Shown here in pieces: positions 3,439 to 38,870 of a DNA stretch of 64,000 nt. The notes beneath the pieces were generated by a model, which made no database searches, was not told the DNA's origin, and was given only the letters and a program-made list of their open reading frames with translations. The translations under genes and the position numbers were made by a program. Every line of letters starts with the position of its first letter. Position 1 is the stretch's first letter. Origin of the DNA: Candidatus Iainarchaeum sp. (GTDB lineage: Archaea; Iainarchaeota; Iainarchaeia; Iainarchaeales; JAFCCW01); NCBI GenBank assembly GCA_017609985.1, contig JAFCCW010000010.1, positions 1 to 64,000 of the forward strand, given 5' to 3'.

Positions 3439-4791
3439 TTGAAGAAAATAACTCCCTCTGAAAAAAGCTATTCAAGGGATATGCACTTTGCCCAGTCGCT
3501 TGTTGAAAAAATAAAAGCAGTTGAAGGAAAGCATGTGCGGGTGGAGATTGCAGGAAGCTTTGCAAGAAACACTCACCTCAAGGGAGACAATGACATAGAC
3601 TTGTTTGTTCTTTTTCCAAAAACTCTTCCAAGGGAAGACTTTGAAAAAGAAGGATTGCGGATTGGCAAAAACATGTTTCGTGGGCACAGGTGGGAAAAAG
3701 CTTTTTCAGAGCATCCTTACATTCGCGGTTCAATTGACGGATATGATGTGGAAATTGTTCCAAGCTATGATGTGGAGCAAGCTTCCGAACTTCAGTCAGC
3801 AGTGGATAGGTCTGTATTTCATAATAAATATTTGAAGGAAAAGCTGGACAGGGGAAAGAGAGCAGAAATAAGGCTCTTGAAAAAATTTCTTAAAGGAATC
3901 GGGTGCTATGGCGCAGAGTTAAAGACAGGGAGTGTGCCAGGCTATGTGCTTGAACTTCTTGTCCTGGAATATGGTTCTTTTGAAAAAACAATTCAGGCGG
4001 TTTCAGGCTGGCAAAAGGGAACAGTTGTTGACGTTGAAAACCATCTTGGAATAGAAAAAGCAAGGGAAAAATTTGACTCTCACTTGATTGTAGTTGACCC
4101 AACCGACAAAAACAGAAATGTTGCTGCTGCTCTCTCTTACCAGCAGTTTGCTCGTTTTATAGCTGCCTCTCGTGCTTTTCTAAAAAAACCTTCAAAAAAG
4201 TTTTTCTTTGCTCCCAAAGGAAAATCCTGGTCTGTGCCAAAAGTTAAGCAGGCGCTTGCACAAAAAGAACTTGTTGCAATTCACACCCCATATCCAAGCA
4301 AGGCACTTGAAGACATAATGTACGGGCAAATTTTCAGAACAGGAAGAAAAATTGCAGTACAACTTGCAATACACGGATTCACAGTCAAGAGAGACGAAGA
4401 GTTTATTCAGGTTGGAGAAGCAGCAGCAATGGTTTTCGAGCTTGAAAGTGTCAGACTTCAAAAAGTAACCAAAAAAACAGGACCAGAGGTTGCAGATGAA
4501 GAGAACAGTAAGAAATTTCTTGAAGCTCACGCTAGACCAGTTGCCGGACCGCGAATTGAACAAGGCAGATGGATAGTGGAAGTCAAGAGAAAATATCCAG
4601 ATGCAAACAGGTTTTTGAAAGAGTATTCAAAAAAGCTTGGGAAAACAGAAAAAGAGCCTATTCGAAAAGCACTCTCGCGTGCAAAGGTTTTGGATGAAAA
4701 ACAATTAATCAAGCTATACAAGAAAAACAAGGAATTTGCCTGCTTTCTGACAAGGTTCTTGAAGGGAAGGGAAGAGTTTTTGGGGTATTAA
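3439..4791 (+). CDS. cca: CCA tRNA nucleotidyltransferase (archaeal class I)
   Basis: EIAGSFARNTHLKGDNDIDLFVLFP catalytic motif; exact start uncertain (TTG or non-canonical upstream). Confidence 0.93.
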   Translation: MKKITPSEKSYSRDMHFAQSLVEKIKAVEGKHVRVEIAGSFARNTHLKGDNDIDLFVLFPKTLPREDFEKEGLRIGKNMFRGHRWEKAFSEHPYIRGSIDGYDVEIVPSYDVEQASELQSAVDRSVFHNKYLKEKLDRGKRAEIRLLKKFLKGIGCYGAELKTGSVPGYVLELLVLEYGSFEKTIQAVSGWQKGTVVDVENHLGIEKAREKFDSHLIVVDPTDKNRNVAAALSYQQFARFIAASRAFLKKPSKKFFFAPKGKSWSVPKVKQALAQKELVAIHTPYPSKALEDIMYGQIFRTGRKIAVQLAIHGFTVKRDEEFIQVGEAAAMVFELESVRLQKVTKKTGPEVADEENSKKFLEAHARPVAGPRIEQGRWIVEVKRKYPDANRFLKEYSKKLGKTEKEPIRKALSRAKVLDEKQLIKLYKKNKEFACFLTRFLKGREEFLGY

Positions 4792-6697: not shown

Positions 6698-8764
6698 ATG
6701 ATTAAATCCATCAAGCTAGAGAACTGGAAAACCCATCATTCAACTGAACTGGAATTTGGAAAGGGAACAAACGTGCTTGTCGGCGAGATGGGTTCTGGAA
6801 AGTCAAGCGTGATGGACGCGGTTTCTTTTGCCTTGTTTGGAACATTTCCTGCTTTGAAGAGCAAACGGGTTTCAATGGATGAAGTAATTATGGGCAGACC
6901 AAACGAAGCTGATTTTGCAAAAATTTGCCTTGAATTTGACTATCGTGAAAAAAATTTCAGAGTTGAGCGAACAATCAAGCGCGGTGGAAAAGCAAATCAA
7001 GCAAGCTTGTATATTGGTGAAAAACTTTCCGCAGGTCCCAAGGTGGGTGATGTCAACGAACGAATTTCAAAAGAACTAAGTGTGTCATATGACTTGTTTT
7101 CGAGAGCAGTGTACAGCGAACAAAACCAGATTGACTTTTTTTTAAGGCTTAGTCCACGTGACAGAAAAGAGAAATTTGACGAACTTCTTGACCTAAAGCG
7201 TTATGAAACAGCAAGAGCTTCTTGCGTGACTGTTTCAAACAGGCTGGGGCAGAGAGCAAACGATCTTAGAAAATTTGTTGAAGACCAAAAAAACGCTTTC
7301 TCTGGAAAAGAAACTGAAGAGATGAAAAAACGCCTTGAAGAAAAAACAAGAGAGCGCACGGAAACAGAGAACAAGATTTCTTCAGCAAAAAAGATTTCTG
7401 CGGAAGCAGACTTGATTTTGAAAAAACTTGAAGAACAAGAATCAGAATACCGTGTTTTTAACAATGCATTTATTGCAGGAGAAGCTCGTCTGAAAGAAAT
7501 GGCTGATGCAATAGCTGAAGCAGAGAAAAAAATCAAAGGACGCTCAATCAAGGAGATTGCTGAGAAAGTCAAGAAGCTTGAAAAAGAGCTGGATTTGTTA
7601 GAAAAGGAAAAGCAGGAAAACAATGAAAAAGCAATTCAGTTGCAAGCAAGAGCTGATGAGTCTCTTCAAAAAAAATCTGTTGTTGAATCAAAAATAAAAG
7701 ACCTTGAAAAGCATTTTGCAGAGTTGGAGGGGCTGGGAGCAGAGTGTCCAGTTTGCAAGTCCGAGCTTGACGAAAAATCAAAAGCTCAGCTTATTGAAGA
7801 AAATCAAAGCGAGAGAAAAAAACTTGAAGAAAATTTAGCAGAAGAAACAAAAAAATCAGAAAAGATTTTTTTCGAAAAAAACAAGCTGGAAGAAGAAAAA
7901 AGCAATTTTGAAAAAAAATTCAGAGAATTGAGCAATTCAGAGAGACAAGAAAGGGAAATACTCGAAAGTGCAGAAAAGCTTGAAGAAAACAGAAAAAAGT
8001 CAGAAACACTTAAAGAAGAACTTGAAAAAACAAAAGAACAGATTAAAGCGCTTTTATTTGACGAAAAAAAGCTTTCTGAGGCAAGAGAAAAGCTTTCTGA
8101 GGCAAGACTTAATCTTGAAAGATTAATAGGACAAGAAAAATCATTAAAAGATGTAATCGAAGAAATTGAACATGGCATCAAGCTCGCTAAAAAAGCAAGA
8201 GAGCATGTGAAAAAATCTGAAAAAGAGGTTTTGCAACTTGAAGAAATCAAATCCAAGCTTGAACTCTTTCGCGCCTCACTTATTGCTACTCAGGCAGAAT
8301 TAAGGGAAACTCTTGTTGAAGGTGTTAACTCTGCAATGGACACTGTTTGGCAGAGGATTTATCCATACCAAGACTATGTTTCTGCAAGAATGGAAATAGA
8401 ACAGGGAAGTTACGAGCTAAAAGTAAAAACAAGGTCTGGTGCTTGGGTCAGAGTAGAGGGTATTTTGAGCGGGGGGGAAAGAAGCGCTGCTGCTCTATGC
8501 ATTCGCATTGCATTTTCTCTGGTTCTTACTCAGAATCTTAGCTGGTTAATTCTTGACGAGCCAACTCACAATCTTGATAGCAATGCTGTTCGCAAGCTTA
8601 GTGAAATGCTTCGTTCTCAGCTTCCAGAAATGGTTGAACAAATATTTATTATCACGCACGACAAAGAAATGGAAAAAGCAGCTTCTTCAAATCTTTATCT
8701 AATGCAGAGAGACAAAGACAACGATGGCACAACAAAGCCGGTTCTTCAGCAGATAGAGCACTAG
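6698..8764 (+). CDS. rad50: Rad50-like SMC-family DNA repair ATPase
   Basis: Walker A GEMGSGKSS, zinc hook CPVC, signature LSGGERSAAALC, Walker B WLILDEPTHNLD. Confidence 0.92.
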   Translation: MIKSIKLENWKTHHSTELEFGKGTNVLVGEMGSGKSSVMDAVSFALFGTFPALKSKRVSMDEVIMGRPNEADFAKICLEFDYREKNFRVERTIKRGGKANQASLYIGEKLSAGPKVGDVNERISKELSVSYDLFSRAVYSEQNQIDFFLRLSPRDRKEKFDELLDLKRYETARASCVTVSNRLGQRANDLRKFVEDQKNAFSGKETEEMKKRLEEKTRERTETENKISSAKKISAEADLILKKLEEQESEYRVFNNAFIAGEARLKEMADAIAEAEKKIKGRSIKEIAEKVKKLEKELDLLEKEKQENNEKAIQLQARADESLQKKSVVESKIKDLEKHFAELEGLGAECPVCKSELDEKSKAQLIEENQSERKKLEENLAEETKKSEKIFFEKNKLEEEKSNFEKKFRELSNSERQEREILESAEKLEENRKKSETLKEELEKTKEQIKALLFDEKKLSEAREKLSEARLNLERLIGQEKSLKDVIEEIEHGIKLAKKAREHVKKSEKEVLQLEEIKSKLELFRASLIATQAELRETLVEGVNSAMDTVWQRIYPYQDYVSARMEIEQGSYELKVKTRSGAWVRVEGILSGGERSAAALCIRIAFSLVLTQNLSWLILDEPTHNLDSNAVRKLSEMLRSQLPEMVEQIFIITHDKEMEKAASSNLYLMQRDKDNDGTTKPVLQQIEH

Positions 8765-9246
8765 TTTATTTTTCCATTTTTGCCAACAAAGCCAAGTTTT
8801 TTGTTATCCTTGCTTCTAAAGACTCTTTTGGTTACTTCTCTTTCAAGATTGGCACCATAAATTTTGCGAAGTTGCCCAATAACCTCTGCAACTTCTGCTT
8901 TTCCTCTTAACAATCCATTTTCTTTCGCAAGCTCTGCCATTGCAATCATTGAATTTTTATAAACAAGACCTGCTTTGATTCCAGAGATTAGTTTTTGTAT
9001 GTCAATTTTTCCTTTTGAATCAGTAAAGCGCTTTGCAATTTCGGAAATTTCTTCTTCCGTAAAAATTTTTGAAATAAAATTTCGCACATTTGTTTCTCGC
9101 TCTCTAATAGAGGGATATTCATCCCATCTGAACAGCAATCTGATTTTATCAAGAGGGACAGACTCAAAAATATTTATTTCATTATATTTTGGGACGCGAC
9201 CATATTCTAATTCTCCCAGAATCTTGAAGTTCCCCTTATTAACCAT
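8761..9246 (-). CDS. Hypothetical protein
   Basis: 161 aa ORF, convergent 4-bp overlap with the rad50 stop. Confidence 0.75.
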   Translation of the reverse strand: MVNKGNFKILGELEYGRVPKYNEINIFESVPLDKIRLLFRWDEYPSIRERETNVRNFISKIFTEEEISEIAKRFTDSKGKIDIQKLISGIKAGLVYKNSMIAMAELAKENGLLRGKAEVAEVIGQLRKIYGANLEREVTKRVFRSKDNKKLGFVGKNGKIN

Positions 9247-9326: not shown

Positions 9327-9515
9327 CTAGTTTGCGTCTTTAATCATTCTGGAAATATAGCCTGCCATGATGTTTCTGTCGTTTTTTGAAAGAGAAAGAC
9401 CTATTCCGTTAATGACTTCCTTGTTTTTTTCAAAATCCTTTCCAAACTTTTCCTTGTGGTTTTCTAAGAGATATTCTGCTCTTGATTTGATTGATTTTGG
9501 AACAGCTTTTCCCAT
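9327..9515 (-). CDS. rps17e: 30S ribosomal protein eS17
   Basis: MGKAVPKSIKSRAEYLLENHKEKFGKDFEKNKEVI...RNIMAGYISRMIK. Confidence 0.85.
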   Translation of the reverse strand: MGKAVPKSIKSRAEYLLENHKEKFGKDFEKNKEVINGIGLSLSKNDRNIMAGYISRMIKDAN

Positions 9516-9523
9516 AAAAACAC

Positions 9524-9727
9524 CTAATTAAGTTCTACTCTTTTTTCTTCACCATTTGGAAAATGTCTAATGACTGTGAGCGGAAGAACATTGTCTTCAA
9601 GCTCTTTTTTAGCTGTTTCCAAAGGAGTTCCAGCACCTTCTTTTACAAGAGCAGGAGCACCCATTGAAATCTGAAGGGCTCTAGCACCTATGAGCCTTGT
9701 TCTCTCAAATCTTGTTAAAATTGGCAT
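9524..9727 (-). CDS. rpoK: DNA-directed RNA polymerase subunit K (Rpb6-like)
   Basis: [25 protein letters not shown]. Confidence 0.92.
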
Positions 9728-9775: not shown

Positions 9776-11323
9776 TTAAAAAGGAATTGTCTTTCTTGCG
9801 CTGAAACTTATTGCGCGGTGTTTTTTAGATATCTCGGGAATTGGAAAAGTAGAGTTTTTTGAAAATTCACGAGCTAACTTCAATGGTTCCTCTGATTTAA
9901 CAAAAGCGCTGTTTCCCTGACAGCAAATGAATCTTTCTCTTCTGTTTCCACTTATTTTTCTAAATTCGTCTATTGTGGAGCTTTTTATTGCATTTATTCC
10001 TTTTGCTATTTCTGAGTGAAAGAAAGAGCTTTTTGGATTTTGAAGTTGTCTGAATAGTTCATTTCTTACAAGGCAGGAATTTTTTTCAAGGCTTTGCATG
10101 AAAATCATTTCACTGGTTTTAGAAGAAACACTTTCTCCAATAATGCCGTGTTTTTCAAAAGCCTTGCTTTTTTGTTTTTCAATATTTTTTGAAGCAAAAA
10201 CAGTTGCTGATGAAAGAGAATCCAACTGGCTTGAAATAAAAGACTCTTTGTTTTTGCAGGTCCAGGCAAGACAAGAATTTCCAGTTATTTTTCCTATTCT
10301 TGTTTTTTCAAGTTCTTGAGCATCCCTAATTGGAACAAAGGCTGTTTCCTGTCGTGAAAAAGGGCCTACTGGAATTGTCTGCAGAAAGAATTCATCCATA
10401 TATTTTATTCTTTTTTCTTTCAGTTCCCTGCTTTTGTGAAATTCTTCTGAAAAAGAGGGAAGGGTTGACTCAAAATAAACTGCGTCCTGCAAAAAGCTCA
10501 CTTCAACTATGGAAGAGGGCAAAACATTGGGGCTGAAAGGACTAACAGGCTTGCAGCAATCGCAATTCAAAGAGTCAACCCCTAAATTAAAAAAAGCAAA
10601 TCCAAGCATTGAACTCCAGACCTTGGAAAAATCAAATTCGACTACATCTGAAAAAACACCGTTAAGATTTGAAACAGGTTCGTAAAAAGAATTGTTTTCT
10701 TTTTCAGGTTTTGGAAAACCAGCTTTGAAAAAAGCATTTTCGAGAGCAATTTCTCCAATTGATATTGAAAGATGATTAACCTGTTCTGCTGGAATTTTTA
10801 AGAGATTTGAGAGCACTATACTGTCAGCTAACCCAATTGCCTTTTGTCTGTCTTGTTCAGCTAAAAGCTCTATTGTTGAATCAAGCGACTCTGCAGTAAA
10901 TCTTGTTTTTGAAGTTGGAACTCGCAGGGGGAGTTTTTCAGGAAGATTGTCTGAAAATCTAAAACAGTCAAAATAACTCCAATTTTTTTCAATTAAAAAC
11001 TGTCTCTCTGGTTCAAGATGAGATATTCCGATTTTGAAAGAAGAATGAATAGCGTTTCTTATTTTCTTGAGATCAGAGTAAGTTGAAGCACTTATTTTAA
11101 TGCTGTTTTTTAAATTTTCAAACTTGCTTTTTTGAGGGTCAAGAGTGAAGAGAAGCTCCCGGATTAACTCTCCAGCTCTGTCCTCTTTTGGTGCAAGAAG
11201 TGAGGGAAAGAAGGTAAAGCGTTCGTTTCTCTTGGTTTCTTCTGAAGAGAATTCTGCAGCAATGCATTTTTTTTCTTCAAGATATCTCACTTCAGTGAGA
11301 AACCAGTGGGTGTCGGGAGACAT
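9776..11323 (-). CDS. Degenerate, probably inactivated family-B DNA polymerase homolog
   Basis: LEPERQFLIEKNW (PolB N-domain-like); LSNLLKIPAEQVNHLSISIGEIALENAFFKAGFPKP resembles the PolB segment after Exo III; YEPVSNLNGVFSDVVEFDFSKVWSSMLGFAFFNLGVDSLNCDCC resembles motif A with SLYPS degraded; no KxxxNSxYG or YGDTDS. Confidence 0.7.
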   Translation of the reverse strand: MSPDTHWFLTEVRYLEEKKCIAAEFSSEETKRNERFTFFPSLLAPKEDRAGELIRELLFTLDPQKSKFENLKNSIKISASTYSDLKKIRNAIHSSFKIGISHLEPERQFLIEKNWSYFDCFRFSDNLPEKLPLRVPTSKTRFTAESLDSTIELLAEQDRQKAIGLADSIVLSNLLKIPAEQVNHLSISIGEIALENAFFKAGFPKPEKENNSFYEPVSNLNGVFSDVVEFDFSKVWSSMLGFAFFNLGVDSLNCDCCKPVSPFSPNVLPSSIVEVSFLQDAVYFESTLPSFSEEFHKSRELKEKRIKYMDEFFLQTIPVGPFSRQETAFVPIRDAQELEKTRIGKITGNSCLAWTCKNKESFISSQLDSLSSATVFASKNIEKQKSKAFEKHGIIGESVSSKTSEMIFMQSLEKNSCLVRNELFRQLQNPKSSFFHSEIAKGINAIKSSTIDEFRKISGNRRERFICCQGNSAFVKSEEPLKLAREFSKNSTFPIPEISKKHRAISFSARKTIPF

Positions 11324-11378
11324 TATGTAAAAGAATGCGTTTCAGTAGCTTTTAAAGAAAACGAAGCTCACGCAGGAT

Positions 11379-11389
11379 TTCCGGTGAAC
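11379..11389 (-). promoter_or_regulatory. GTTCACCGGAA element upstream of the PolB-like gene, with degenerate copy GTTCACTGGAA at 11406-11416
   Basis: Exact 11-mer; TATA-like CTTTTAAAG about 22 nt downstream on the minus strand. Confidence 0.65.
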
Positions 11390-11418
11390 TTGAAAGGATG
11401 GAAAATTCCAGTGAACTT

Positions 11419-12951
11419 TCAGAGAAACTCTTTTGCTTCCTCTTCATTTTGCTTTTTGCTTTCTTCAAATCTTCGTCCTGCGTCTTCAAGGCTTACTTCA
11501 TGCTTTGAATCCTGGCTTTTTTTCTCTCTTACTTTGAAGAACACTGGAAAGGAAACAGCTTCTCCCACGATTAGGGCTTCTCCAACTCGGAGAGAGGTAA
11601 TCATGTCAAGACTTCTCCTATCCAGAGCTTCAGCGCTTTTAGCAACATGGTCAAGATCGTAAGGATTTGTAATTCTGAGAATAATCTTTGTATTGCACTG
11701 GCTGAGAGCAGTTGTGTCAAGCTGTATAGGTCTTTGAGAAACAAGGCAGAGGCTTGCTCCAAATTTTCTTCCCTCTCTAGCAATCGTTCTCATGATTCCT
11801 TTTGCAATAGCAGTATCTTTTCCAGCGCGCTCTGGAATAAACTGGTGTGCTTCCTCTAAGACAAGGAGGAAAGGGGGAAGCAGCTTTTTTCTTCTATCAT
11901 AGAAAAGCCTCTGGGCAAAATAGCTTACAATAATCTGCTTTTTCTTGACATTAATTATATTGCTCAAGTCAATGATTGTGAGTTTGCCTGGCTCCACAAG
12001 GTCAGAAATGCTTGGACTATCCGCTTTTGAGAAAAGCTTTAATTCTTCGAGATGAGAAATCCAGCCAAGAAGCGCAATTTTTGTGTTTTCCTTCATGTCC
12101 TTGTCTCCAGCAATAGCTGTCTGAACATCCTTCAAATCAAATGCTCCAAGGCCACGCCTCATCTCCACGTTAAGATTTGAAATAATTCTTCCCAAATCTC
12201 TTTTCTGGGCTGAAGAGAGGCCGGGAATGATTCCTGAAAGAATTCCAATGCTGAGCTTTGGAACCCCGATTTTCACTTTCTCTGCTTTCACAAGATTTGT
12301 TTTACTGGAAAAATCCTTTTTTCCTTGTTCAGCAGGCTCTGCAAAGCTGGAGTATTCACCGTGCGGGTCAAGCACAACTGTCGCAATTCTTCCCTGCTCC
12401 TGATTTCTCTCTAAAAGCTCTTCAAAGAGAACAGACATCAAGTAACTTTTACCTCCACCGGAAAGAGCCAAAACAGCAAGATGTTTCTTCAAAAGAGAGC
12501 TTAAATTCAGCTTAACATCAAGATCGTGGTATTCAACTTTTCCAAGTTCCAATCCGGTTTCAAGGTCAAAGCCGAGGAACTGTTCCAAGTGCTTGTTGTC
12601 AGCAATCTTTACCTTTGTTCCAGGGGACGGGGGAAAAGAAGGACGCTTTACAAGTTTTTTGGAAAAAACACCAAGAGGTCTTGTCTTTGCAATTAAAAAT
12701 TCCCATTCTTCTGTTGGAAACTGTTCAAATAATTTTTTTCCCTGGCTCTCAAATTCTTTGACTGATTCAGCGCGCTCAAAATATCTGTTTGTTTTAACAA
12801 CATCGTTGACAAGGCAAATCATTGTTCCCTCAGAATAGTCAAGCTCTACAAACATTCCCCTGTGAATCACGCCGGATGTCACAACAAAGTCAACACTGCT
12901 GGGAGAAGGAGATTCAAGCCCTGAAATAACTGTTCCTATTTCTTCATTCAT
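11419..12951 (-). CDS. herA: HerA hexameric ATPase/helicase
   Basis: HerA N-domain, Walker A LSGGGKSYL, VVLDPHGEY, LLVLEEAHQFIPE, SQRPIQLD. Confidence 0.93.
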   Translation of the reverse strand: MNEEIGTVISGLESPSPSSVDFVVTSGVIHRGMFVELDYSEGTMICLVNDVVKTNRYFERAESVKEFESQGKKLFEQFPTEEWEFLIAKTRPLGVFSKKLVKRPSFPPSPGTKVKIADNKHLEQFLGFDLETGLELGKVEYHDLDVKLNLSSLLKKHLAVLALSGGGKSYLMSVLFEELLERNQEQGRIATVVLDPHGEYSSFAEPAEQGKKDFSSKTNLVKAEKVKIGVPKLSIGILSGIIPGLSSAQKRDLGRIISNLNVEMRRGLGAFDLKDVQTAIAGDKDMKENTKIALLGWISHLEELKLFSKADSPSISDLVEPGKLTIIDLSNIINVKKKQIIVSYFAQRLFYDRRKKLLPPFLLVLEEAHQFIPERAGKDTAIAKGIMRTIAREGRKFGASLCLVSQRPIQLDTTALSQCNTKIILRITNPYDLDHVAKSAEALDRRSLDMITSLRVGEALIVGEAVSFPVFFKVREKKSQDSKHEVSLEDAGRRFEESKKQNEEEAKEFL

Positions 12952-13148
12952 TTCTTTTCACCAAGTTTTTTTCTGAACTTATTAATTGTTTTATCATCAG
13001 CCTCTAAAATATATCCCTCAAAACCGCATTCTTCACAATAATAGTTGTTGAAGAAAGCACTTGAAACCTTCCAAGGAGTAATTGGAATCTTTATTCTCTG
13101 CGAACCGCATCTCGGGCAAAATTTTGCAAGCTTTTCTTCTTTTTCCAT
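12948..13148 (-). CDS. Small Zn-finger protein between nurA and herA
   Basis: MEKEEKLAKFCPRCGSQRIKIPITPW...YYCEECGFEGYILEADD; two CxxC; 4-bp overlap with herA start. Confidence 0.82.
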   Translation of the reverse strand: MEKEEKLAKFCPRCGSQRIKIPITPWKVSSAFFNNYYCEECGFEGYILEADDKTINKFRKKLGEKK

Positions 13149-13158
13149 TTTATTGCCT

Positions 13159-14256
13159 CTAAAACGGGCGAGAATCACGCCTCATTCTGACATTAAATTG
13201 TCTTCCAAGCCTGTCAAGAATTTTTTCATACATTATGTTAATTTCATCAGGCCTTAGCCTTGCCCTGAGGTCTGCTTCAATCAAAACAGTTGGATAAGCA
13301 TACTCGCGGTGCATTGAGCTTAACGAGTAAGTAATTGAAGCAATCTTGTCAGCTTTTTTTTCAACATCCTTTGCATCTGCAAGAAATTCAATACGCAATG
13401 GTCTGTCATATTTTGCAGGCTTCAGATAAACAGCATGAACCATTGAAGCCCATTTTTCACTGAAATCGGACAGAATAGGGTGGTCTTTTGCTGTTGGAGA
13501 ATACTTGAAGGCAATGCTTCTCTCCCCCTGTTCCAGCAGATAGTCAAGCAAAACAGAGTCATAGCAGTTGTCCAATGCACTGCCATCAAACTCTTGTTCC
13601 TTTGAAAGCACCTGCTCCTGCAAAATTGTCCTGAATCTTGAACCGCGAGAATCCTCAATACAGGAAACAATAGTGCTCTTGTTTTCCTCTGCGGAGGTGT
13701 AAAGTGCTTCAAAAGAAGCAATAAGCTTTTTGTAAAAATCTGCGACAGCAGAATCACTTCTTGGCTTGTCCATATACTGTGGAATAATGCTGCCGTCCAA
13801 AAACATGTAATTTGGCTTAAATTTTTCAATAGTCTCTCTTGCAGTGTCTATTTCTTCAATAAGGCGCCTCATTGACTTGGAAACCTCAAACTCGTCATTG
13901 TCAAGAGCAGAATTACTCAAATACGGTCTTGGAAAAGAGAACACGCGCGGATAATAATCAGCTTTTTCAAGCTTTCCCTGTTTGTAAGAAAAAACAGCAG
14001 AAACAGTTTTGATAAGAATGATGTCAAGGGAAAACAAGCCCTTTCCAACAAAACCAGAGTCAACACCGGCAACTACTCCACTAACTTCTTGCGATTCAAG
14101 TTTTTTGACAAGATTTTCCTCAAGCAGTTCAGGAGAAGCGTAACCTGACAGGCTTTTTGTTTTAAGCGGAGAAAGCTTTTTTGCAAAATCTCGTCTTCCA
14201 GACTCTGCTCTGGCAATTGTTTCCACTGCATCGCTGATAACAGAATTAAACGACAT
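13159..14256 (-). CDS. nurA: NurA 5'-3' nuclease
   Basis: VSGVVAGVDSGFVGKGLFSLDIILIKTV; MFLDGSIIPQY; operon with herA. Confidence 0.88.
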   Translation of the reverse strand: MSFNSVISDAVETIARAESGRRDFAKKLSPLKTKSLSGYASPELLEENLVKKLESQEVSGVVAGVDSGFVGKGLFSLDIILIKTVSAVFSYKQGKLEKADYYPRVFSFPRPYLSNSALDNDEFEVSKSMRRLIEEIDTARETIEKFKPNYMFLDGSIIPQYMDKPRSDSAVADFYKKLIASFEALYTSAEENKSTIVSCIEDSRGSRFRTILQEQVLSKEQEFDGSALDNCYDSVLLDYLLEQGERSIAFKYSPTAKDHPILSDFSEKWASMVHAVYLKPAKYDRPLRIEFLADAKDVEKKADKIASITYSLSSMHREYAYPTVLIEADLRARLRPDEINIMYEKILDRLGRQFNVRMRRDSRPF

Positions 14257-14304: not shown

Positions 14305-14315
14305 TTCCGGTGAAC
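14305..14315 (-). promoter_or_regulatory. GTTCACCGGAA element upstream of nurA
   Basis: Exact 11-mer; TTTTTTATAAA box about 18 nt downstream, then nurA ATG. Confidence 0.65.
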
Positions 14316-21354: not shown

Positions 21355-21365
21355 GTTCACCGGAA
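21355..21365 (+). promoter_or_regulatory. GTTCACCGGAA element upstream of a small Zn protein
   Basis: Exact 11-mer; CTTTTAAAG box about 21 nt downstream. Confidence 0.65.
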
Positions 21366-21435: not shown

Positions 21436-21573
21436 ATGGAAAGAATTGAAGCAAAATGCAGGATTTGTGGAGAAATAATAACTGGAAGGAATGCAGATAG
21501 TTTTAGAACAAACTGGTACCAGCACGAATTGGATTCAGAAAAACATGTTGCTTGCGCGCTAGCAAAATGCTGA
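21436..21573 (+). CDS. 45-aa putative Zn-binding protein
   Basis: Own reading: MERIEAKCRICGEIITGRNADSFRTNWYQHELDSEKHVACALAKC*; AAGGAGG SD. Confidence 0.7.
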   Translation: MERIEAKCRICGEIITGRNADSFRTNWYQHELDSEKHVACALAKC

Positions 21574-38432: not shown

Positions 38433-38443
38433 GTTCACCGGAA
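38433..38443 (+). promoter_or_regulatory. GTTCACCGGAA element upstream of microprotein/PC4-like unit
   Basis: Exact 11-mer; TATATAAA at 38464-38471 (about 20 nt downstream). Confidence 0.65.
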
Positions 38444-38636: not shown

Positions 38637-38870
38637 ATGCAACCAGTAAAAAAATATTCTGCAGGCGGCCTTCAGGTCGCAGTATGGGAAAATGAAAGCA
38701 AAACAGGCGGAAAATTCCACACAGTCTCCATGGACAGAAGCTACAAGGACAACAAAGACAATTGGCAGAAAACAAACACTCTACGAGTAAATGATATTCC
38801 AAAAGCAGTTGTTGCTCTTACAAGAGCATATGAATTCGCAGTCCTCAAAGAACCAACAATTGCAGACTAA
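38637..38870 (+). CDS. Small PC4-like/ssDNA-binding-like archaeal protein
   Basis: LQVAVWENESKTGGKFHTVSMDRSYKDNKDNWQKTNTLRVNDIPKAVVALTRAYEFAVLKE; strong SD. Confidence 0.65.
   Translation: MQPVKKYSAGGLQVAVWENESKTGGKFHTVSMDRSYKDNKDNWQKTNTLRVNDIPKAVVALTRAYEFAVLKEPTIAD

Follow-up and report, generated by a model that had tools for sequence, protein, structure and literature searches.

Lost catalytic features of a family-B polymerase homolog

The DNA analysed here (the window) is a stretch of 64,000 nucleotides from contig JAFCCW010000010.1 of Candidatus Iainarchaeum sp. Its minus strand carries, at positions 9776-11323, an open reading frame of 515 amino acids with an ATG start, to whose product we give the label PolBi. 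PolBi is a degenerate homolog of family-B DNA polymerases (PolBs), a paralog that lacks the exonuclease and the thumb and is predicted to be catalytically dead. A sequence-only reading of the window had delimited the same frame, quoted three PolB landmark strings from it and described it as an exonuclease-less, degraded PolB homolog. The frame is as described, all three strings are present in the translation, and the homology is supported by profile-profile alignment, an AlphaFold2 model and Foldseek. The parts of PolBi are as follows.

10934-11323, minus: PolB N-terminal domain, residues 1-130, ending in the conserved LEPERQFLIEKNWSYFDCF (hhalign)
10820-10933, minus: short linker, residues 131-168, in place of the exonuclease domain (hhalign)
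10550-10819, minus: palm part 1, residues 169-258, with motif A EFDFSKVWSSM and NCDCCKP (alignment)
10268-10549, minus: extra module, residues 259-352, about 95 amino acids, absent from active PolBs (conservation, AlphaFold2, Foldseek, hhalign)
10016-10267, minus: fingers, residues 353-436, with a destroyed motif B at 413-427 (AlphaFold2, alignment)
9779-10015, minus: palm part 2, residues 437-515, where the protein ends (alignment)
9908-9925, minus: destroyed motif C, CCQGNS, residues 467-472 (alignment to the PolB of the same genome)

The relationship to PolBs is visible because profiles were used, direct single-sequence and family searches being uninformative: the PolBi sequence has no Pfam or NCBIfam match and only a chance-level PHROGs match, and phmmer of the single sequence against the PDB returned nothing useful. 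In profile searches of phylum and archaeal genomes, the PolBi profile gave weak, repeated matches to canonical PolBs. Aligned by hhalign, the PolBi family (profile A1, 28 members) matches 27 canonical PolBs of the same phylum (profile A3) with a probability of 98.4 and a score of 125.6, against maxima of 22.3 for column-shuffled and 15.9 for reversed controls. The match is collinear; it begins ahead of motif A and runs beyond motif C. AlphaFold2, run without templates, gave a predicted local distance difference test score (pLDDT) of 90.2 and a predicted template-modelling score (pTM) of 0.87. The top 50 PDB matches of this model in Foldseek are all family-B polymerases (best 5mdn, E 7e-13), and the Foldseek viral library returned polymerases too. 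The two results named in the sequence-only reading as counting against it, a profile search without PolB similarity and intact motifs B and C, were both looked for and neither was found.

Residues 1-135 align collinearly with the PolB N-terminal domain (2-127 to 1-140, E 4.4e-4), and hhalign found no match between them and the PolB exonuclease region. The N-terminal domain and the palm lie about 40 residues apart, compared with about 230 in the canonical PolB of the same genome, which bears out the missing exonuclease block read earlier. In motif A, the replacement of SLYPS by KVWSS had been recognised correctly. Of the pocket aspartates expected to be lacking, those of motif C are gone, but that of motif A is still present: D231, within EFDFSKVW, is kept in PolBi and in 23 of the 28 family members, the other five having N, S or G. 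The lysine and glycine of motif B, which the family does not conserve, are C417 and R425 in PolBi. Motif C reads YGDTDS in the own-genome PolB and CCQGNS in PolBi, with loss of both aspartates; only 3 and 1 of the 28 members have an aspartate at the two positions. Motifs B and C had been called not visible, which is right in effect, as both can be aligned and are destroyed. The thumb is absent, because just 44 residues follow motif C, a loss that the sequence-only reading missed.

With the motif-C aspartates, the motif-B residues, the exonuclease and the thumb gone, the sequence predicts a protein that cannot be a normal polymerase, and these losses make a DNA-synthesising role very unlikely. 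The retained D231 could instead point to a residual enzyme with weak nucleotide- or DNA-dependent activity, and there are reports of activity for archaeal PolB2, which had earlier been taken for dead (PMC4104785, PMC11791011). The loss of both motif-C aspartates and of the motif-B lysine, the lack of thumb and exonuclease, and the replacement of the motif-A aspartate in five members argue against this, and we regard such an enzyme as highly improbable. The NCDCCKP string is the counterpart of PETLNC.H.EC in active enzymes. We rejected CxCC...C as a newly gained zinc finger; these cysteines correspond to ones that the active PolBs of the phylum have as well (NC.H.EC...WFC), and are inherited.

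One canonical PolB is encoded in the same genome, separately and on another contig (G000:C26; 806 amino acids). Two maximum-likelihood trees of palm and fingers give the PolBi family a very long stem, and the second shows it as monophyletic; the family may descend from the phylum's own PolB or from another PolB. A protein search found PolBi in 50 of 57 relatives. Profile A1 matched 78 of 92 Iainarchaeota (Diapherotrites) genomes; seven of these show a weak match to the canonical PolB only and were left out of the strong count, which stands at 71 of 92 genomes with full or partial matches (70 of the 80 genomes of the window's order and 1 of the 12 others of the class). Outside the phylum, about 200 other archaeal genomes gave no strong match (295 genomes were searched domain-wide). 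The matches there were weak (E 4e-9 to 1e-3), lay at the motif-A region or the fingers/motif-B-C region of open reading frames of roughly 700-1,700 amino acids, and are to what look like canonical PolBs. A narrower genome scan gave 14 loci (11 of them titled Diapherotrites). Protein identity is about 30-37% across dozens of genomes, and 23 columns are invariant among the 28 diverse members. Because the protein is conserved in this way in dozens of genomes, PolBi is a real protein family rather than a chance reading frame, and it is a PolB paralog specific to one lineage. A description of the family was not found in the part of the literature searched, which is weak evidence of absence; given the lack of Pfam and NCBIfam matches, its members are likely annotated as hypothetical in databases.

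A GINS-B-like module within the palm

Between motif A and the fingers lies the extra module, which had been overlooked. The spacing from NC.CC to WFC is about 15-20 residues in active enzymes and about 95 in the PolBi family. The module is the best-conserved region of PolBi (mean majority fraction 0.53, against 0.37-0.47 elsewhere), with 14 columns conserved at 90% or more, and when excised (113 amino acids) it is modelled by AlphaFold2 with a pLDDT of 91.8. The fold of a GINS B-domain is a three-stranded sheet plus helix plus hairpin; for the excised module, Foldseek ranks GINS chains first (9moj, 5ghr, 5ghs and CMG structures), with probabilities up to 0.96 and a template-modelling (TM) score to 5ghr_B of 0.72, but with E-values of 0.24 or worse. 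At the level of single members, the Pfam matches are weak: six members have one to PSF2_N and four to Gins51_C, both GINS B-domain families. Against a profile of Gins51 B-domains from 29 archaeal loci, hhalign aligned the module with a probability of 89 and a score of 35.05; the highest scores of the controls were 18.7 for 150 column shuffles, 8.1 for the reversed profile and 16.1 for alignment windows free of the module. By this comparison the module has the sequence profile of the B-domain (YGPF..gd.v.LP..A..L...g.A). It aligns with the C-terminal domain of PriS (probability 49), a known GINS-B relative (PMC2861644). A PDB profile match to glutaminase chains (E 0.023) was set aside as chance.

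The identification of this region as a GINS-B-like protein-docking domain is well supported, and it is probably a true relative of the GINS B-domain. The B-domain is a transferable module that occurs in more than one replication protein, including archaeal PriS (PMC2861644), and GAN, the archaeal counterpart of Cdc45, binds to it in Gins51 (PMC5484177). The genome studied here encodes Gins51 (L162) and two DHH-family proteins (G000:C23:80408 and G000:C22:27781).

The gene slot and its promoter box

All genes from nurA to that of ribosomal protein S17e are on the minus strand, in the order nurA, zinc ribbon, herA, PolBi, rpoK, S17e, and a rad50-like gene faces them.

14305-14315, minus: promoter box, 59 nucleotides upstream of the nurA start (pattern search)
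13159-14256, minus: nurA, nuclease (Pfam NurA 1.9e-12)
12948-13178, minus: small zinc-ribbon protein between nurA and herA (weak zinc-ribbon matches, CXXC pairs)
11419-12951, minus: herA, helicase/translocase (Pfam DUF87/HerA 3e-29; NCBIfam HerA 9e-49, under that model's curated cut-off)
11406-11416, minus: second copy of the box before PolBi, GTTCACTGGAA (pattern search)
11379-11389, minus: promoter box GTTCACCGGAA, starting 66 nucleotides upstream of the PolBi start codon (pattern search)
11349-11356, minus: putative TATA-like element TTTAAAAG, downstream of the boxes (read from the sequence)
9524-9727, minus: rpoK, RNA polymerase subunit K, conserved downstream neighbour (Pfam RNA_pol_Rpb6 1.3e-10)
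9327-9515, minus: ribosomal protein S17e, conserved neighbour (Pfam 1.2e-11)
6698-8764, plus: rad50-like ATPase, convergent conserved neighbour (Pfam Rad50_zn_hook, AAA_23)

The adjacency to herA and nurA pointed out in the sequence-only reading is conserved across the order. In 30 of the 32 loci examined, herA lies upstream of PolBi on the same strand; in the other two, herA and nurA are close and inverted (G012) or PolBi is elsewhere (G003). Downstream, rpoK and S17e follow PolBi almost everywhere. The zinc-ribbon frame overlaps both nurA and herA and is present in some relatives only. A frame of 161 amino acids after S17e (8761-9246) could not be assigned convincingly to a family, its matches to PqqD and to a winged-helix model being marginal. 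The label 'Mre11' given to a neighbour in the locus scans is wrong, as positions 3439-4791 of the window encode a CCA-adding enzyme (Pfam).

In another family of the class, the slot directly after herA and before S17e holds a homolog (L083, genome G091) of 828 amino acids from its likely start. Besides the N-terminal domain, the insert and a dead palm, this form has a degenerate exonuclease region, where substitutions affect most of the catalytic residues that could be located by eye. Family f22 has, in its herA-rpoK slot, proteins of 338-372 amino acids; PERQFLL is kept in them, and two of three also retain the LPAS element and PL.DA..L. Their alignment with A1 reaches a probability of 92.5 and a score of 57.9, against a maximum of 20.5 for shuffles. 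Linkage to HerA is thus kept both in L083 and in the eroded short versions. Two genomes (G016 and G018) have lost PolBi cleanly from between herA and rpoK and yet keep nurA, herA and rad50, on account of which the protein would be helpful rather than indispensable. NurA was found in 81 of the 92 phylum genomes, including genomes without a PolBi gene; PolBi is for this reason an accessory protein.

The shrinkage from 828 through 515 to about 350 amino acids and the two clean losses could also be taken as the decay of a pseudogene family. Some 70 genomes, however, conserve PolBi as an open frame of full length; some of its residues are invariant, and its promoter is conserved too. We rejected decay, which is contradicted by conservation across families and is scarcely credible. 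One phylum, in one gene slot, presents 828-, 515- and roughly 350-amino-acid forms and clean losses side by side, and with them stages by which dead polymerases become scaffolds that are normally hard to see.

Several repair and replication genes of the phylum have unusually long frames: HerA of 1032-1488 amino acids (L121, L100, L110, L095), Rad50 of 1215 (L088), and PolB frames of 1213-1253 amino acids with split PolB matches (G014, G029, G046, G051). These suggest inteins or large insertions. Second PolB-like frames occur beside the canonical PolB at G010:C15:171813-172931 and G032:C2:68746 (760 and 723 amino acids).

The sequence-only reading had also proposed a shared promoter element, and this was confirmed: the box GTTCACYGGAA is present in two copies before PolBi and one before nurA. 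The genome contains 11 exact copies, compared with 1 for the backward-read control. Copies stand 58-66 nucleotides before the starts of PolBi, nurA, a Rad3/XPD-type helicase (TIGR00604, E 3e-40) and a radical-SAM protein whose family is putatively involved in DNA repair (TIGR03916, E 1e-75), the last two matches being under the model cut-offs; another precedes a Dam-type methylase by 94 nucleotides. Of the 28 relatives, 20 carry the core ACCGG[AC]A between -53 and -62 upstream of PolBi, against an expectation of about 0.3 given the local background; a TATA-like TTTAAA stretch usually comes next. Several nurA genes of the relatives have the same box or a one-letter variant. From these patterns, the sharing of the box by PolBi, nurA and other repair genes is well supported, and it supports a putative co-regulation of PolBi with repair genes. 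The conserved box is a candidate repair-regulon box and offers an entry point to such a regulon in these archaea, for which none is described in the literature searched.

Five of the genome's 11 copies are in the window, including those at 21355-21365 and 38433-38443; further loci recorded with the box are L183, L184 and L185. Two small frames lie downstream of box copies, at 21436-21570 (45 amino acids, with CXXC) and 38637-38867 (77 amino acids). Neither has a Pfam or NCBIfam match, and their products are possibly small damage-linked proteins.

The box also bears on an alternative in which PolBi regulates replication or transcription apart from resection, acting on the canonical PolB, on PolD or, via RpoK, on RNA polymerase, with its position in the block being historical. 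In favour of this alternative, rpoK and S17e accompany PolBi as constantly as herA does, and in lineage f4 PolBi lies away from herA. The box, however, is common to nurA and repair genes and not to housekeeping genes, and we consider such a regulator improbable.

Proposed role and comparison with known systems

DNA ends are resected 5'-3' by HerA-NurA, and in Sulfolobus additional partners of HerA are known (PMC4351679). We propose, as the likeliest role and at about an even chance, that PolBi is a non-catalytic adaptor that links HerA-NurA resection to a replisome factor. The dead PolB core would serve as a scaffold and PolBi would associate with HerA-NurA at broken or stalled DNA, while the GINS-B-like module would contact a replisome factor that normally binds GINS. 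The first candidate for this partner is a GAN/Cdc45-type protein of the RecJ family, otherwise MCM or PolD. End resection could in this way be guided, restrained or handed over to DNA synthesis. The narrower version, in which the GINS B-like module borne by the palm docks a CMG-type GAN/Cdc45 (or MCM) onto HerA-NurA, under control of the repair-gene promoter box, is less likely than not. If it is true, PolBi would connect replication forks physically with the resection of breaks, in an arrangement that arose independently of the inactive half of polymerase epsilon and yet in parallel to it. The gain of a GINS B-like module in the palm, beside herA and nurA, makes a link between replication and resection directly testable in archaea.

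Several observations weigh against the adaptor. The Foldseek E-values for GINS-B are weak (0.24 at best), and single sequences of the long and short forms compared with the GINS profile in hhalign were not significant. In lineage f4 (G003), PolBi is located away from herA. Since rpoK and S17e also adjoin PolBi, the neighbourhood alone is not specific to repair. HerA and NurA occur without PolBi in other genomes, so that PolBi is not a core subunit.

PolBi could also be a structural member of the HerA-NurA complex itself, binding DNA or HerA/NurA directly and regulating resection, with the module in contact with HerA or NurA. The tight linkage to nurA and herA, the shared promoter box and the extra partners known for HerA (PMC4351679) are consistent with this. 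The resemblance of the module to GINS-B points elsewhere, however, and the usual DNA-contacting elements of PolB (motif B, motif C and thumb) are gone; we find this role rather doubtful.

Inactivated PolB paralogs are known in archaea, and the sequence-only reading had placed PolBi among them; that it is an inactivated PolB stands, but it does not belong to PolB2 (Dpo2), the best-known inactivated archaeal group. Both are archaeal family-B homologs with degraded catalytic motifs in repair-linked operons (PMC4104785, PMC11791011). PolB2 occurs with iRadA and PPB2, whereas PolBi occurs with NurA, a zinc ribbon, HerA, RpoK, S17e and Rad50. PolB2 retains the exonuclease fold and one motif-C aspartate (PMC7544198, PMC11791011), and PolBi has neither exonuclease nor thumb nor either of these aspartates. 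We rejected PolB2 on operon, exonuclease fold and motif-C aspartate, a separation based on published descriptions.

The canonical PolB of the same genome shares with PolBi the N-terminal domain, palm, fingers and NC.C.C / WFC cysteines. Unlike PolBi, it has every motif, keeps exonuclease and thumb and ends in a PIP-like tail, and the insert is missing from it. Poxvirus F12-type proteins are likewise inactivated PolBs exapted to another role (PMC4304020); they are viral, and their role is a different one. Archaeal PriS is a replication protein of polymerase type that acquired a GINS B-domain (PMC2861644), but it is a catalytically active primase and has the module at its C-terminus, whereas in PolBi the polymerase is dead and the module is flanked by motif A and the fingers.

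Polymerases that have lost their activity and act as scaffolds are already known, polymerase epsilon being the famous case. Its inactive C-terminal PolB half is, as proposed for PolBi, a dead PolB retained for a scaffolding role in a machinery involving GINS (PMC7544198). In polymerase epsilon the dead half is fused to an active polymerase and has zinc-binding C-terminal motifs (PMC7544198), whereas PolBi is separate and short, carries its GINS-like module internally and is encoded beside resection genes.
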